The notes below the pieces were generated by a model, which searched no databases, was not told where the DNA came from, and was given only the letters and a program-made list of their open reading frames with translations. A stretch of DNA of 64,000 bases from Styela clava. Its lineage: Eukaryota > Chordata > Ascidiacea > Stolidobranchia > Styelidae. Made by a program: the position numbers and the translations under genes. The first letter of the stretch is position 1, and each line of letters begins with the position of its first letter. The stretch spans positions 29,751,395-29,815,394 of the forward strand of contig NC_135250.1 of assembly GCF_964204865.1 (NCBI RefSeq), in the 5' to 3' direction. Positions 11,994-58,786 of the stretch are shown piece after piece.

Positions 11994-18965
<6,972 letters not shown>

Positions 18966-22347: not shown

Positions 22348-23892
22348 ATGTCCGTGTATTGTTACACTATATTGATACTTTGCTGCATCGGAGCCGTTAA
22401 TAGCCGTCCGACTAATACCAAGCCTAAAGTAGAGAGATGGGAAAAGAATTGGGATGCATGGAAAGAACAATTTGGTGAGATTTATTGATTTTTTGCCGAA
22501 CTCGAATCTGAATCGAATAACTGGTTAACTCTGACATGGGCTAACTACCGCCCACGGGCCAAATCCGGCCCGTTTGGTAATTCAATCTGGCACGCCTGAT
22601 GCTGCCACAACCAAATTAAACCCAAATTTTGATATTTTAGCAAAAAAAATAGCTCAAGGAATTAGTCGAGATTGCGATTAAATTTAGTTTTGGCACGAGG
22701 CCTATTGTTTTCCACTTTTGCTTTTGTAACACTGTAAATATTGTTCATAAAATGTAACGTTTTACGTCACGCATGGCCCTCCAGTCTAGGTGGGCAAAAT
22801 TTTTGGCGCCTGGTTCAAAAACCTAATAAAAAAGTTTTAATTCTTTGTTACGTCACAGGAAGGAATTATGAAACCGCTGAAGAAGAGGAGAGGCGGCACA
22901 ACATTTGGTTGCAGAATAAGGCGCAGATTGAACAACACAACAGGGAAGCAGATGCCGGGAAACATACATATTATCAGGGAATTAACCAATTTGCTGACAA
23001 GGTAAGCGTGACCAATCAGAATCCTGCACGACCAAAAATCACTGATGCGTAACTGGCCAAAATATTAATAAAAAAAGGTTTATGGTGAGGCACTGTTTTT
23101 GTTTGTACGTGTTTTTCCTTTTCGCTCTAACAGCTCCGCGTGAGCAGTTATTGTTAAGTACAGAGCGACTATAATTTAAAACAATGATTCCCAAATTGAT
23201 TGACCTTGGGCCAAAATTAGAAGCGGGGGGATTACGGCCCTCGTCACGATATGGCCCGTCAAAGTTGAGTGAAATTGTTTAACACTTCATTTCACACATT
23301 CATTTTTCTTTTGCGTTCTAGGCAGACCAAGACCATTTGTTTATTCATTATAACAGCTTCACTAGTCACCGCAAATTATTGGCGGTGCGCAATATCATCC
23401 GTAAAATACAGTAACTTAAAAATACAGGTACTCCCGTAGTATTCCAACAAGATGGCGGACACCGGAACGTAGTATGTGTACCAGGTTAGGGTTAGGCCAT
23501 AATTTCATTAGAAATACTACGGGAGTCACTTGGCTAGTCCCCGAACTCGTAATAGAACTAAAATAAGGAAATTGGAATAAAATTATGATCTAACACCAAC
23601 CTGGTACATATACTATGACAGGTGTCCGCCATCTTGTTGCACATACTACGGGAGCGACAAGATACACCACCTTGAAATGAACAGCAATTGATTTATGCGC
23701 TCCGTGGTATTCGTACTAAGATGACGCACAACCTGAACAATCCTGACGTGGTACACATACTATGTTCAGGTTGTGCGCCATCTTGGTACGAACACTTCAC
23801 CAAGGACGATTATTTTTATTATATACGATATATTTATATTTTAGGCTGAAGGTGAATCAATATATGGCTGTTTGGTTGGTGGACACGAATAA
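22348..23892 (+). CDS. Locus C: stand-alone I29 cathepsin-propeptide inhibitor-type protein, 105 aa
   Basis: Exons are 22348-22474, 22859-23001 and 23845-23892 (318 bases with TAA). Exon 1 encodes a signal peptide (MSVYCYTILILCCIGAVNS) and WEKNWDAWKEQF. Exon 2 holds the whole I29 helix pattern, E-x3-R-x3-W-x2-N-x3-I-x3-N (ERRHNIWLQNKAQIEQHN), plus GINQFADK. Exon 3 adds AEGESIYGCLVGGHE and a stop. No protease domain exists between here and locus D. Exon lengths and phases (phase 1 after exon 1, 143-base exon 2) match loci E and F, so it derives from a protease gene. By family analogy with crammer, BCPI and CTLA-2 it should bind and inhibit cathepsin L-like enzymes, here in the secretory route. 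Exon 3 has the same length in locus D, so the stop looks conserved. Introns carry a hAT-like fragment and two MITEs. Confidence 0.82.
22525..22850. mobile_element. hAT-like fragment in locus C intron 1
   Basis: It contains GCCCACGGGCCAAATCCGGC, ATGCTGCCACAACCAAATTAAA and CACTGTAAATATTGTTCATA. Reversed relative to 17416-17710. It ends just before the exon 2 acceptor. Confidence 0.6.
23427..23658. mobile_element. MITE, long type (232 bp), 7/8 target duplication, locus C intron 2
   Basis: Flanks are AAAATACA (23419-23426) and AAGATACA (23659-23666). Ends are GGTACTCCCGTAGTATT and ACTACGGGAGCGAC. Internal GGTTAGGGTTAGGCCATAAT. Confidence 0.85.
23696..23810. mobile_element. MITE, short palindromic type, degraded ends, locus C intron 2
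   Basis: The arms CAAGATGGCGCACAACCTGAA (complement at right) and TTCGTACTAAGATGACGCAC (left) can pair. It lies 37 bp after the long MITE at 23427-23658. Target duplication not clear. Confidence 0.7.
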
Positions 23893-23913
23893 TCTCAAAT
23901 CCTATACTCTATT

Positions 23914-24165
23914 CAGGGGCGTAGCAAGAGGGTGTTTTTATTTTTGGGGTCGGACCCCCCCCCCCCCCCTTTGAAATGTAGAAAAAATAAAATCATCTTT
24001 CTGTATCATACATCTTGAAACGCTTTTAAGACACTCAAGACTCATGAAAACACAAGTTTTCCGGCGTTCGTCCGGACCCGCTAACTGTTTCGATCCGACT
24101 TGGCAAATAGAAGTTTTAGAACCCCCCCCTCCCCCCTTTTGTGAAAATTTCTGGCTACGTCCCTG
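23914..24165. mobile_element. hAT-like element with poly-C tract, inserted 21 bp after the locus C stop
   Basis: The ends are CAGGGGCGTAGCAAG and CTGGCTACGTCCCTG. Inside are poly-C, AAAATAAAATCATCTTTCTG and CCGGACCCGCTA. It supplies an AATAAA near 23983 that could serve locus C. Related copies are at 28634, 29677, 30191 and 38959. Confidence 0.75.
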
Positions 24166-24189
24166 ATTCCAATCCCCAAAATCACGTGA

Positions 24190-24427
24190 CAAATATCATC
24201 CCAGAAGCTTGAACGTCAGATTTATTTTTGATTCAAGGAGACGTTGAATATCATTTAACTATGTTACTTTCATTTTGTGTGTGTGTGCAAAATGAGAAAT
24301 AAAATCTTTGTCATTCTAGAATAAATTGTATTATTGTAATTTTCATTCACACCAATCGTTTCGCTCGTCAAATAAATTCTTCATTGCATTGATATGACGT
24401 CATTTGCGGTATTACCACGTCACTTTG
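24190..24427 (+). repeat. 3' flank of locus C (copy 2 of a direct repeat)
   Basis: Shares sequence with 21366-21602, in the same direction. AATAAA-type signals occur near 24300 and 24317. If the hAT-like insertion is skipped, this was the original 3' flank of locus C. Confidence 0.75.
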
Positions 24428-24541
24428 AGTTAAGAAATGATAAATAAGTGATTGAAACTCCACAGAGGTTTTGCAGAGTCAGGGGGGGGGGGTTGTCCCC
24501 TAATCAAGGGTGTGTCCCCTCGAATCTCGAATACTCAAAAG

Positions 24542-24769
24542 GGCGTGCCAGCAGTATGTGCACCAATATGGAGATAACTAATTTTGTTCGCCTACTTTAC
24601 ATCAAGTTGCGAAAGGGACTGAAACATATGGGCAGAGGGTATATTCACTTGGCTATCACATACAGTCCCCAAACTCGTAATAGGACTAAAATATTCCAAG
24701 TTCAACTGGAAACCTTAAAGAAAACCGGAATAAAATTATAATCCGTATTTGCCTTGGTACATGGGTACT
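24542..24769. mobile_element. MITE, third type (228 bp), 7/8 target duplication
   Basis: Flanks are CTCAAAAG (24534-24541) and CTCAAGAG (24770-24777). It holds the ATCAAGTTGCGAAAGGGACTG and TATTCACTTGGCTATCACAT motifs. Confidence 0.78.
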
Positions 24770-25069
24770 CTCAAGAGATATTCAATTGCATGTTTTTTTT
24801 TTATTGTAATGAGTCCACCAGATCAGATAAATTACTGAAAACATGGAATCCAATACTCAAACAGTTAGCTGAGTGTTCGCACACAATAAGAAAGTTATTC
24901 CATCAATAACTAACTAGAATTGAAAGTACCACATGTCAAATGGCAGTGCAAAAATGTAGCTTCACTACAAAAATTGAGGAATTTAACCTCAACCTTTAAA
25001 GGCAAAATAAAAAACAAGATGGCGGCGATTCAAAATTTTAATTTGAGTTAATCACTGAGTTACGTCTTA

Positions 25070-25240
25070 CTGGTGGTTGGTTGGTGGGTTGACGGCTTAA
25101 TCCTTTGACGAACAACCGCCTCTCGTCCTGTTATCAGTCCATGGCGGGTATGGGATGATTTAGCCAGTTATTTGTTTTCAGAGACATGGAATCAGAGGTG
25201 GGTGGCGAGCGTATTCCTACGTATTAGCACGATCTATCCA
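25070..25240 (-). mobile_element. tRNA-derived SINE fragment
   Basis: On the minus strand it shares GTGCTAAT..GTAGGAATACGCTCGCC and the CATACCCGCCATGGACTG segment with the fuller copy at 50893-51215. Truncated. Confidence 0.6.
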
Positions 25241-25667
25241 GATGAATATGAGTCACATGACACCCCAGCATTTAAAAAAAATGTAATTTGCGTCATTTAC
25301 GACATATTCATATGCCTTTTCCAACACCATTTTGCTCTATTCTTGAACGATTTACTTATAGTCGGACGTTTCCTGGCCATTAATAACCAATTTTGTTTAC
25401 TAAATGAACCAAACGAAATAAAAGAAAATGTGCGTTCATGTGCCTTGGATAACTTCGACAGCGAAGTACGTGTGTGGAGCAAGAACCTACGTACATTTGA
25501 ACCCATGTGTATATCCGCGGGTTCAATCTATATGCCGGTGCTAAAATCCATGGGTCAGGGTTAGTATGGGTTCAAATATCCGTGAAACCAAAAAAATTTC
25601 TATGGGTGCAATAGTATTCAGGTGCAATTGTCGTGGGTTCAAATGTACGGGAACCGTTTATTACTTA

Positions 25668-25915
25668 TCGATTTTAATCGGTAAGTATGTTGATAGGTAT
25701 TTGTCTGTTAGATGCACGCGATATCTCACGAAAGCGAGATTGAGCATTCATCATATGTCGGACCAGAAGCCTATTGATTTTGGATGAATTATGTCGTATA
25801 ATTAGCGAGGTATTAATTAATTAGTGATGGACAGTATGAAGGTGTCACTATGGAGTGAGAGCGCTGTTTTGGGGATCTCCTAACTTTCGATCGATAAGTC
25901 TTCGGTCTCTGACCG
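25668..25915 (+). repeat. Dispersed repeat, copy 2
   Basis: Same sequence as 16743-17050, with an internal deletion that removes the TGTCTG microsatellite and part of the following segment. Confidence 0.7.
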
Positions 25916-25932
25916 CGTTAGGATATTGTTAG

Positions 25933-26340
25933 ATATCAGTTAGCTACTGTTATCCGGCTTGTTCTGAGCAAAAGGCACGAGTAAGCGTCGTATTACGTCA
26001 TTATACAACATACAAAAACATATTGAGCTTTTTCATCACCATTGTTGTCAGTCTGCGATTTCGGATTAAATTCCATGGAATTCAGAATGCGAAACTCTGG
26101 TGAAAACATTCTATTCTCCGACATCACGACATCATGTTATATATCAGTGATTACTGTTATCTGGCTTTGTTCGGAGCAAAAGGAACGAGCGTCGTATTAC
26201 TTCGTTATACAACAAAAAAACATTTTGAGCTTTTTCATCACCATTGTTGTCAGTCTGCGATTTCGGAATAAATTCCATGGAATTCAGAATGCGAAACTCC
26301 GATGAAAACATTCTATTCTCCGACATCACAACTATGGTTT
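25933..26340 (+). repeat. Tandem duplication of about 205 bp
   Basis: ATATCAG..ACTGTTATC(C/T)GGCTT starts both units (25933 and 26141), and both contain TTGTCAGTCTGCGATTTCGG and ATTCCATGGAATTCAGAATG. Small substitutions and short indels separate them. Open frames here are by-products. Confidence 0.85.
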
Positions 26341-26574
26341 CGCATCATTTCGTTCATGCTGCCAAAAACATGTTTTCGTATTCGCTTACACCCTTATTTC
26401 CCCCTATATTACGATCAAACTGCCTGGTAGTTTCGAAACATAAAACTCTTAACGTCAGAAACAGATTGTGTGTTTCAATTCCTTTACGATTATGAAATCA
26501 CAACCACGTTTAAGCGTCACAAATGTTTATTGCACGGTTGACTGTTCTCTCGAATTCTCTCTCAATTTACCGGT

Positions 26575-26790
26575 CACAGTAAACATTACTCGATACAGTA
26601 CAGCTGTTTGTTTTAATAATTGTTTACCAGCACGATATTGTGTAATATATTAGCTAGTGAGCTTAAAACAAGTTGAAGTGACACAAATTCGTCTTCTTAG
26701 AGATATTGTGTTATTTAGTTAATTTACTATGTAGGGTATAAATATGGAGCTTCCAATATGCAAAGATTACTTTTCGGTGGTGCCTCTGAG
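26575..26790 (+). promoter_or_regulatory. Upstream block of locus D with TATA box (TATAAATA at 26737)
   Basis: Shared with 22063-22260 upstream of locus C, including CAGTAAACATT, ATTGTTTACCAGC and GG(C/G)TATAAATA followed by ATGGGGCTT or ATGGAGCTT. In D the block is 1.6 kb from the ATG because transposons lie between. A 5' intron may bridge the gap; I cannot show it. Confidence 0.5.
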
Positions 26791-27604
26791 ACTTTTTGTA
26801 TCGTACCGGAACATTTTGTACCAATCGGTCTTTATTAAAGCGTAGTACTTCGCTAAAATTATCTATAGTGTCGGAAGCTTTAGGCCAAGTCAGTGGTATT
26901 CCGTATCTTTGTTAAGAAATCAGTCTAATTTATTTTTGGTTTATTGCGCGTAAGCTTGTTTTGCAAATTTTTTTTATAAAATAACTTGAAAACCTCTGGA
27001 TTATATTTTTAAAAGTGCGGCGAGTATGCATTGCTTGGTCTTCGTGGGCCCCTTGGCGTTAAATTAATGAGCTACCAGTAAACAGGAGTAAAACATGACA
27101 CTGATACCGGGAGAGGGGTGGTAGATCTTTTGTACTAAGCCACGCCGAAAAAACACCCTGTAAACGCTAAAAATTGGTAATTATCCAGTTAGGGTTACAA
27201 AATGCCGATTGCACCGGAAATTCAAATTTTTCAACCATTCCTAACCCCAATTAGATAATTACTAATTTGTTATTTAAAAACGAATACGTCAACGCCCAAA
27301 ATAATTATTTATCCAGTTAGGGTTAAAAATGCCGATTGCACCGGAAATTCAAATTTTTCAATCATTCCTACCTAAACCCAACTAAATAATTACTAATTTG
27401 TTATTCAAAACGTGGGTGTTTTTCTGGAATATCACATCTTGAAATGTGAGTTTGAAAAGATCCAAGGATGGTAGCTCACTCTTAACTGGGCCCAATCTCC
27501 TCTAATTCGTGGCTTTGCAGGCCAATACCCGCTAAAAATAGTCAGCTACTTATGAAAGTATTATCATGTTATTTTCCCGGGGCTCCAAGTTTCGGCACAT
27601 ACCG

Positions 27605-27953
27605 TGTTTCCCGGAAAACAAGACCTACCCTGAAAATGAGACTTAACCTGAATTTTAAAAATGATTTTAATATACGCCCTCTCTTCAAAATAAGACCTAG
27701 TCAATAACGCGAAATTTTGTTTTTGACCTAGCCGATAGCAAGAAATCTCTCCTACACGTTTTGATGATTGATAATTAATCTATGTTTTGCAGTTATTTCG
27801 AATAAAAACGTGCTGATTGAACGTAAATGTATGTCGGTTTTAATATTTTGCATATTTGGAAATCTCGTTATTCTCTCCTTTGTAATTTTGTTTTTGATAA
27901 ATGAAAATATAAGACATCCCCCGAAAATAAGTCCTAGTGTTATTTTTCGGGAG
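27605..27953. mobile_element. MITE with CCGTGTTTCCCGGAAAA end, right end cut by another MITE
   Basis: The left end is ACCGTGTTTCCCGGAAAACA; the right part has CCCCGAAAATAAGTCCTAGT and stops at 27948 where the short MITE begins. A related fragment, CTCGAAAAATAAGTTCCGAC, is at 29065-29085. Confidence 0.65.
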
Positions 27954-28059
27954 CTTCAGAAGTATGTGTACCAAGATGGCGCACAATCTGAACATAGTAT
28001 TTGTACCAGATTACAGTTCAGGTTGTGCGCCATCTTGCCACACATACTTCGGGAGCGCC
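27949..28059. mobile_element. MITE, short palindromic type (111 bp)
   Basis: Arms ACCAAGATGGCGCACAATCT and complement; right end ACTTCGGGAGCGCC. It seems to have landed in, or replaced, the end of the neighbouring element; no target duplication is readable. Confidence 0.78.
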
Positions 28060-28193
28060 ATGACCTCAGTTAGCAATAATATTCACAAACAGTGTTTGGA
28101 CACCTATTCACGGGCGCATAAGAAAAGGGATTCTCACGAATCCCCCGAATCTCACATTTAGATTTATCCGATTCCCAAGTATTTTCCAAATAT

Positions 28194-28306
28194 GTGGGCT
28201 CCCGAAGGATGTGCACCAAGATGACGCACAACCTGAACATAGTATGTGTACCAGGTTAGGGTTATCAGGTTGTGCGCCATCTTGGTGCACATACCTCCGG
28301 AGCGCC
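28194..28306. mobile_element. MITE, short palindromic type (113 bp), 7/8 target duplication
   Basis: Flanks are CCAAATAT (28186-28193) and CCAAATTT (28307-28314). The right boundary is 45 bp before the ancestral start codon of locus D. Confidence 0.82.
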
Positions 28307-28409
28307 CCAAATTTGTGTGTTTTTCGGAAATATTGAAATAAACTATTTCTATGTCTGGTTACACTATATTGATAATTTTCTGAGTCTTAGAAGTCGTTCC
28401 GTTGATATC

Positions 28410-30044
28410 ATGTCAAACAAGCCTAACGTGGAGGAATGGGAAAAAAACTGGGAAGCATGGAAAGTGAAGTTTGGTGAGATTTTTTGAAGGTTTTCCTGAC
28501 CGCATTGACTTGACCTGCTTCAACTTTTTAGTCCACCATGAATCTATAGTTTGAGTAGCACTTGGTAGTTCAGTGGTGCCTGTTATTTCGCTTACTTTTT
28601 CCACATTTAGTGGTGGTTGTAACTGTTCTATTCAGGGGGGTGGTTTTGGGGGTCGAAACCCCCCCCCCCTTTTGAAATGTAAAAAAAATAAAAGCATATA
28701 AATTTCAGCCCCTCCCTCTCCCTTTGTAAATTTCTGGCTACGCACCTGGTTCTATTGTAAACTTGTAGCCTACCTTTTCAATCAGTACGCTTCTCACTTT
28801 TAGCTGAGCGCTATAGGTTTCTTGCTTTGAGAAAACTTGCAACTATCAGTACACCCAACCGACAACATTTCTATAAGTACTATTTTTACATTAATTAAGT
28901 TACCGGTACCTTACTCAGACTACATTTGCAAATCTTTTTTCACTGCTCTTTCTACTTTTAGTTAAGAATTCGAGACTTTGCTATGACCAATACTGACATA
29001 AAAATGTACCCGTTTCCGTACTGAACGCATCGTATGTGTCAAAAACGTAAAATATAATAAAAAAAAACACACCCTCGAAAAATAAGTTCCGACACGGTAT
29101 CACATTCGAATTACCAGAAACCCCCGATTACTTAACCTTTGTGAACATGAATAAAACTTTCAACTCTTTGTTACGTCACAGACAAAAAGTATGATAGCGC
29201 CGAAGAAGAGGAGAGACGGCATAACATTTGGTTGCAGAACAAGGCGAAGATTGAAGAACATAACAAATTAGCAGATGCCGGAGAATCTACATATTATCAG
29301 GGTGTTAACCAATTTGCTGACAGGGTAAGCGTAACCAGTCAGAATCATTTACACACCGAAAATCAGTGATGCGTCACTGGCCAGAATAGTGAGGAGAAAG
29401 GGTTTTATCGATTATACGCGTTTTTTATACGCTTCTCGCTCCGAACAAGATACTCTATAAATAGCCATCGCGGGCCAAGGAGCTACTATAGCAGTGGTTC
29501 CCTGTCGGGGCCCGTGGCCCACTAAGGGGGCCACAAAGCAGTAATGCCGTGATTCGCCATATGATTAAAATGTCTCATAGGCTCGTCCCCGGGATAAATA
29601 TGTATGTTCTAATCATAATGGCAATAAATCGAAAAAGTCCACATTTAGAAAAAAGTAAAAACGCTACTTTTGACCAGGGGGGTGTTCTTGGAGGTCAAAC
29701 TCCCCCTCCCCCCTTTTAAAATGTGAAAAAAATTAAAGCATCTTTCTGCATCATACATAACAACTTTTCATAGCTTGACACGTTTTTTAGACACTCAAGA
29801 TTCATGAAAACACACATTTTCCGGCGTTCGGCCGGACCCGCTATCTGTCTCGATCTAAATCGGCAAATATAAATTTCTGACTCCTTCTCCCCTTTGAAAA
29901 TTTCTGGCTACTTCCCTGGAATTTACTGCGCCAATATGATAATTACACTTGTTTCATTTTCTAGAAATTTCATTTGATTCTGTATTCATATTTTAGGCCG
30001 AAGATGAACCTGTATGCGGCTGTCAGCATGGGGGACTTAAATAA
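28410..30044 (+). CDS. Locus D: stand-alone I29 cathepsin-propeptide inhibitor-type protein, leaderless or decaying, 84 aa
   Basis: Exons are 28410-28473, 29182-29324 and 29997-30044 (255 bases with TAA). Exon 2 has the I29 helix (RRHNIWLQNKAKIEEHN) and GVNQFADR; exon 3 gives AEDEPVCGCQHGGLK and a stop at the same position as in locus C. The ancestral ATG at 28351, aligned with C's start, is followed by SGYTILIIF and a TGA, so the signal peptide is broken. The next in-frame ATG (28410) would give MSNKPNVEEWEKNWEAWK with no signal peptide, the layout of Drosophila crammer. The product would then be cytosolic. Alternatively this is an early pseudogene. Exons 2 and 3 remain open with intact splice sites and mostly conservative replacements. 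AATAAA is at 30072. The promoter block lies 1.6 kb away. Confidence 0.65.
28634..28748. mobile_element. Short hAT-like poly-C element in locus D intron 1
   Basis: GGGGGTCGAAACCCCCCCCC then AATTTCTGGCTACGCACCTG. An internally deleted relative of 38959-39215. Confidence 0.6.
29677..29921. mobile_element. hAT-like poly-C element in locus D intron 2
   Basis: CCAGGGGGGTGTTCTTGGAG at the left and AATTTCTGGCTACTTCCCTG at the right. The body has CCGGCGTTCGGCCGGACCCG as in 23914-24165. Confidence 0.65.
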
Positions 30045-42137: not shown

Positions 42138-42605
42138 GTAATTGCACTCTAGTTGTCCTCTAACGAAGAGGCTATTCAAATGGCGATCTGGACGATATCT
42201 ATACCATTCGTATTCTGTCCAATATATCGATATGGAGGAGGCAATTCGAATGGCGATTGCGACTATATAGTAGTATAAAGGCCTAAGACTTGATGATGGC
42301 TAATGATTTATGTGAAGGAAAAACATTGAAACAAAGTGACTGAGATGCAAAGTAATGGTAGGCAAGGCCGGATGTAATTAGTAATAGACCATGAAAGTGA
42401 ATTGTAATGCAGAGTGCATCGGTAGAGAAAAATTTTAGAGATATCAACGTAGTTAGAGAAATATTTATTTAGACATTTCCAGCATTTTTGTCGATATTCG
42501 AAATAGCCTTTTTACATAATTGAACCGCATATATGTCCAACTGGATTTGCAACCAACGAAAAAGGATCTTTTATTCTGGATGAAAGTTTGATACTATTTT
42601 TTATT

Positions 42606-43042: not shown

Positions 43043-46990
<3,948 letters not shown>

Positions 46991-52536: not shown

Positions 52537-58786
<6,250 letters not shown>

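Follow-up and report, generated by a model that had tools for sequence, protein, structure and literature searches.

Candidate stand-alone cathepsin propeptide (I29) inhibitor genes, apparently truncated from cathepsin L, in a cathepsin L-like gene cluster of Styela clava

The window analysed here, 64,000 nucleotides from the ascidian Styela clava (contig C1:29751395-29815394, NC_135250.1), contains two short loci, C and D, which sit between the cathepsin L-like genes B and E and encode a cathepsin propeptide (inhibitor I29) domain. Together with two further copies, G and H, on contig C6, they probably form a small family of stand-alone cathepsin L inhibitors resembling CTLA-2 and crammer, derived from a cathepsin L gene that was truncated and then duplicated. 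Judged by its domain content, the family belongs to an already known kind of protein, the stand-alone I29 inhibitors (MEROPS I29). The span that the first-pass annotation had singled out as two such genes, 22348-30044, runs exactly from the start codon of C to the exon-3 stop of D.

Locus C (22348-23892, plus strand) consists of three exons with a predicted product of 105 residues. Its I29 propeptide domain was recognized by PF08246 with E 6e-18 and 65.3 bits, the Pfam gathering cut-off being 24.4, and the match begins at residue 35. Exon 1 (22348-22474) encodes a predicted signal peptide, MSVYCYTILILCCIGAVNS (cut by eye), and the first propeptide helix (NW-x2-WK), and ends at a phase 1 donor, G/gtgaga. 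Exon 2 (22859-23001; acceptor ag/GAA, donor AAG/gtaagc, phase 0) carries the ERFNIN helix and the N-Q-F-A-D motif. Exon 3 (23845-23892) encodes a tail of 15 codons, AEGESIYGCLVGGHE, followed by a stop, and is homologous to the start of exon 3 of the protease genes. A genome-wide repeat (22532-22824, plus strand) occupies most of intron 1 in C, G and H; it is overlapped by 39 of the 40 other matches listed besides these three loci (40 of 3843 first-look candidates were scored). By eye, this repeat resembles the E intron between exons 4 and 5.

Locus D (28410-30044, plus strand) likewise has three exons and, as readable, a predicted product of 84 residues. The I29 domain matched PF08246 with E 9e-18 and 64.8 bits, against the same cut-off, and at E 0.01 neither C nor D matched any Pfam family besides Inhibitor_I29. 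The patterns E-x3-R-x3-W-x2-N-x3-I-x3-N and N-Q-F-A-D are complete in both translations, as had been described. Exon 1 of D as readable (28410-28473, donor G/gtgaga) reads MSNKPNVEEWEKNWEAWKVKF, without a signal peptide; its start at 28410 (MSNKPNVEEW...) is at the sole Met of the open frame to which the I29 part of this exon belongs. At the place of the C start lies a relic (28351-28383), where an ATG opens MSGYTILIIF and then meets a stop, the remainder being in another frame. The earlier statement that both loci keep the signal and I29 exons of the neighbouring proteases is correct for C but fails for the signal part of D. Exon 2 (29182-29324, donor AGG/gtaagc) carries the ERFNIN helix and N-Q-F-A-D, exon 3 (29997-30044) a 15-codon tail, AEDEPVCGCQHGGLK, and a stop; an AATAAA or ATTAAA hexamer begins 28 bases past this stop. 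The earlier description does not mention the third exon of either locus.

Between the last exon of B (ending at 18962) and exon 3 of E (starting at 43940), a tblastn search of the window returned one single match to a protease exon, 42235-42267, which covers 11 residues at E 0.53 and was taken as chance. Among the Peptidase_C1 (PF00112) matches listed from the whole genome (376.6 Mb in 379 contigs; at least 57 matches, 60 candidates scored), none falls into this interval. C and D are I29 genes without a protease domain, as first proposed. We considered whether they could serve as alternative first exons of the downstream gene E, the product then being a protease. Their donor phases would fit the cathepsin exons. 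However, E possesses its own exons 1 and 2, each of the small genes closes with an exon that carries its own stop, and G and H lie on a contig without a papain-family member among the matches listed. Splicing into E was rejected on the exon 1 of E itself and on the situation of G and H; more generally, the genes' own stops, the copies on a second contig without listed papain and the purifying selection between C and D (see below) make it very unlikely that these genes are joined to a downstream protease by splicing. The same three features support the view that these are stand-alone I29 genes of the crammer and CTLA-2 sort.

The two relatives were found in a genome-wide Pfam search for I29, in which 20 candidates were scored, yielding at least 17 matches that were compared by eye with the Peptidase_C1 matches. 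Among the 17 listed, 12 adjoin papain exons, four (C, D, G and H) do not, and one, on contig C4, is degenerate with four stops. G (contig C6:10320409-10321849) and H (contig C6:10323942-10325245) are built from three exons, as are C and D, and exon 2 of both scores above the PF08246 cut-off. G is 93% identical to C over 779 bases and H 87% over 766 bases. No papain-family gene is among the matches listed on contig C6, and tblastn over 40 kb of this contig revealed no protease exon near G and H at E 0.05. All four loci have GT/AG splice sites, and the ERFNIN pattern and N-x-F-x-D can be read in all four translations, H lacking the preceding Gly. By eye, a signal peptide is present in C, G and H and missing in D. 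In G, exon 1 (contig C6:10320409-10320565) contains a 30-base in-frame insertion in the signal-peptide region, a near repeat of the adjoining sequence which C and H do not have. The tail of H, AEGEEIHNGLDVGPE, ends at the same stop as those of C and D and contains no Cys.

Exon 3 of C and D follows an intron of the same place and phase as that before the protease exon 3, its homologue in B begins at 14337 with DEDEW, and the 15 tail codons and the stop are common to C, D and H. On both strands of three stretches, the acceptor TTTTAG followed by [DEA][EQ][DEG]E codons occurs at four of 190 sites, namely exon 3 of B, A2 (a cathepsin L-like gene beyond the window, see below), C and D; this count is a rarity check and not an independent test, as the residue pattern was picked after the exons had been seen. 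The exon-3 acceptors of A and H differ and escape the pattern. Another source for the tail, exon 4 of the proteases with its C-x-GG, had also been considered and was dropped, exon 3 of B and A2 starting alike after the same acceptor. The C and D proteins end 16 residues beyond the D of N-x-F-A-D, crammer 17 beyond. Counted from this residue, position +5 is Glu and position +10 Cys in both tails; position +11 is L in C and Q in D, and glycines stand at +9, +13 and +14.

Over 84 codons, C and D differ with dS 0.705 and dN 0.196, giving a dN/dS of 0.28 (bootstrap 0.13-0.53); by this estimate, the pair shows purifying selection. That C and D are instead truncated cathepsin L pseudogenes left by unequal duplication, with no product, is unlikely, though it has more in its favour than splicing into E. 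The signal region of D is broken, so that no usable signal peptide is in place, a stop at codon 2 of G exon 3 would remove the tail, and the region is rich in repeats. In the C-D comparison, exon 3 (33/48 identical) barely exceeds its surroundings in conservation, with 47/78 identical just before it and 66/89 in the 90 bases after exon 2. Against decay stand the dN/dS value, the GT/AG splice sites of all four genes and the identical stop in C, D and H. Moreover, exon 2 is 82.5% identical between C and D (118/143), compared with 44% (101/228) and 49% (110/225) at the ends of intron 1, taken as 250 bases each.

The broken signal region of D, the early stop in G and the poorly kept exon 3 also weigh against a family of working inhibitors, and further points do so as well. 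For exon 3 alone, the C-D dN/dS is 0.30 with P 0.09, and the overall C-D ratio averages both lineages and is compatible with a recent loss of D. Constraint between C and G is weak: exons 1 and 2 differ at 1 of 270 positions versus 28 of 1084 in the introns (P 0.012), but another placing of the insertion gives 2/270 (P 0.043), and inclusion of exon 3 gives 3/318 (P 0.054). H has neither the tail Cys nor the Gly of the G-x-N-x-F-x-D motif. The essential Gly of crammer (G73, corresponding to +11) is not found at +11 in C and D, and in crammer the tail Cys is itself dispensable, C72A being fully inhibitory according to PMC4089206. We nevertheless regard an inhibitor family as the probable reading.

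H has changed fast. Between H and C, 42 of 267 positions are different in exons 1 and 2, against 28 of 377 in intron 1 (P 0.0007, whole introns). Past the signal peptide we counted 43.3 nonsynonymous and 5.7 synonymous changes, and the nonsynonymous changes (43/201) exceed the intron 1 differences (28/377) with P 2e-6. Amino-acid change in H is thus above what intron 1 predicts, and it is significant only against intron 1: the C-H dN/dS is 1.83 with a bootstrap range of 0.90-4.83, and its excess over 1 is not significant when judged against dS alone (Fisher P 0.126). Outside the repeat, intron 1 differs at 9 of 89 positions. Because most of intron 1 is repeat, the contrast between intron and exons may reflect gene conversion. 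When 83 amino-acid sites of C and H were polarized by D, 50 were unchanged, 15 had changed on H, four on C, and 14 were unclear. The D-H dN/dS is 0.67 (0.36-1.25).

In a tree of 13 rows, a single clade (97/92) unites C, D and H. G was omitted, being identical to C in the columns used, as were the I29 matches at contig C14:10552605, contig C19, contig C1:16232735 and contig C4, which are divergent or in which the first helix was not found; the exon joins of four outgroup rows were placed by eye. Within the clade, C and D are grouped against H (90/81), in conflict with the intron sequence common to C, G and H, and this grouping was taken as an effect of the fast change of H. A grouping of C, D and H with crammer is weak (52/75). 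As nearer kin of the clade, the tree prefers neither A, A2 and B nor E and F (p-AU 0.334 and 0.203). The exon 3 start, which resembles that of A, A2 and B, would favour an A/B-like parent. The idea of a locally evolved enzyme-inhibitor system thus held in part: the single clade and the A/A2/B-like exon 3 start agree with it, but the parent is not settled by the tree, two of the four copies lie outside the cluster, and D as readable has no signal peptide.

The following scheme would account for the family. In an ancestral cathepsin L gene, a stop would have arisen 15 codons into exon 3, sparing these codons and the two preceding exons but removing the whole enzyme; duplication of the truncated gene would then have produced C, D, G and H. 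If transcribed and spliced as predicted, each gene would yield the propeptide alone. If crammer and CTLA-2 are a guide, the helices of this propeptide would dock on a cathepsin L-like enzyme, for which B, E or F would be candidates, in the manner of the enzyme's own propeptide, and the exon-3 tail would lie across the active-site cleft. The ERFNIN Arg would pair with the tail Glu; in crammer, an R28-E67 salt bridge is described in PMC3551606, where E67A inhibits the test enzyme CTSB poorly. The tail Cys of C and D could approach the catalytic Cys. Both proteins seem equipped for docking and for spanning the cleft, and would rely on a thiol of the CTLA-2 type and not on a Gly of the crammer type. 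For C, the signal peptide would point to a place of action in the secretory or endolysosomal pathway; D in its readable form would either stay in the cytosol, as crammer does, or represent a copy damaged recently.

A role other than inhibition, as chaperones or stabilizers of cathepsin L (in folding or neutral-pH protection) or independent of cathepsins altogether, appears improbable to us, more so than decay into pseudogenes. For CTLA-2alpha, stabilization of cathepsin L at neutral pH (PMC4089206) and, for CTLA-2, an effect independent of cathepsin L (PMC5536293) are reported. Two residues linked to inhibition in crammer and CTLA-2alpha, the +5 Glu and the +10 Cys, are retained in C and D and speak against such a role, although they are not decisive.

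Under the inhibitor reading, the loci would present a case of an inhibitor arising from an enzyme gene, in which a stop past the propeptide spares both the part that docks and the tail that crosses the cleft, before duplication sets in. Candidate parent genes adjoin C and D, and the fates of the four copies differ: constraint, loss of the tail, loss of the signal and fast change. If inhibition is true, enzyme and inhibitor of one cluster could be tested directly against each other.

The surrounding genes A, B, E and F are all cathepsin L-like genes with seven exons. B (11994-18965, with C25 present), E (43049-46990) and F (52537-58786) are on the plus strand, and a Pfam scan gave Inhibitor_I29 and Peptidase_C1 matches and, weakly, Peptidase_C1_2 for each of them. 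The intron between exons 4 and 5 of B holds a stray, diverged partial copy of exon 4 (16104-16157, E 0.001). A is on the minus strand and extends beyond the window (1707-463 within it, on to about C1:29748.1k); it adjoins A2 (about C1:29744301 to 29739.3k, minus strand), also a seven-exon cathepsin L-like gene. In A and A2 the catalytic Cys is replaced by Ser (CGGSWADS and CGASWANS) and the oxyanion Gln by Gly, and His and Asn are kept. This Cys-to-Ser change we take to be reminiscent of silicateins. Overall, A and A2 look maintained because their dN/dS is 0.18 over 208 codons from five exon segments, although dS is saturated in exon 4 and the ratio is near 0.7 in exon 7. In another part of the genome, contig C9:16179895-16180164 matches glycosyl hydrolase family 6, which in animals is a marker of tunicates. 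The widest interpretation would join an independent I29-only family in an invertebrate cathepsin L cluster, its spread to a second chromosome, a split of compartments (C secreted or endolysosomal, D cytosolic), diversifying selection on H as with target coevolution, and two constrained Ser-25 cathepsins; taken as a whole, it seems doubtful.

A search of titles and abstract starts, full texts being outside its scope, found no protease-free I29 genes from tunicates, and in the literature examined we met no description of a truncated third exon, of a pair on a second contig or of constraint (C-D) contrasting with fast change (H). The review PMC7863939 mentions neither I29 nor CTLA nor crammer. 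PMC4089206 reports stand-alone I29 inhibitors for the mouse, the fly, the silkworm and salmon, and PMC6010012 I29 propeptide-like proteins for a plant.

Among 18 solved chains matching C, Drosophila crammer (PDB 2l95), a CTLA-2-like protein, was the best (E 3.5e-10; next 2.2e-9). Like C and D, crammer consists of the I29 domain only, and their Glu +5 and Cys +10 have the spacing of its E67 and C72. Crammer is made without a signal peptide, in which it differs from C. The solved chain has Ser at the place of C72, in agreement with the C72S form in PMC3551606. According to PMC4089206, crammer requires G73, the Gly absent from +11 in C and D, and CTLA-2alpha requires C75, which lies at the place homologous to C72 and enters a disulfide-bonded complex with cathepsin L; the inhibition by Bombyx BCPI depends there on a short C-terminal stretch, L77-R80. 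BCPI, again I29 only, contains no Cys, in which it resembles the tail of H and differs from those of C and D. At the position where CTLA-2alpha has its cleft-facing Cys, the tails of C and D also have a Cys, that of H has none, and G would lose the tail. The mouse Ctla2a/b pair reportedly lies inside a cathepsin cluster on chromosome 13, in keeping with the title of Deussing 2002, and would be a precedent for a pair of such genes within a cathepsin cluster. CTLA-2alpha and beta resemble the Styela genes in consisting of I29 only and in occurring as a gene pair; their signal sequence has a counterpart, by eye, in C, G and H, and their Cys close to the active-site cleft (PMC4089206) has one in the tails of C and D. 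They differ in that two of the four Styela copies are placed outside the cluster, and in all likelihood the CTLA-2 lineage is independent of the family formed by C, D, G and H.

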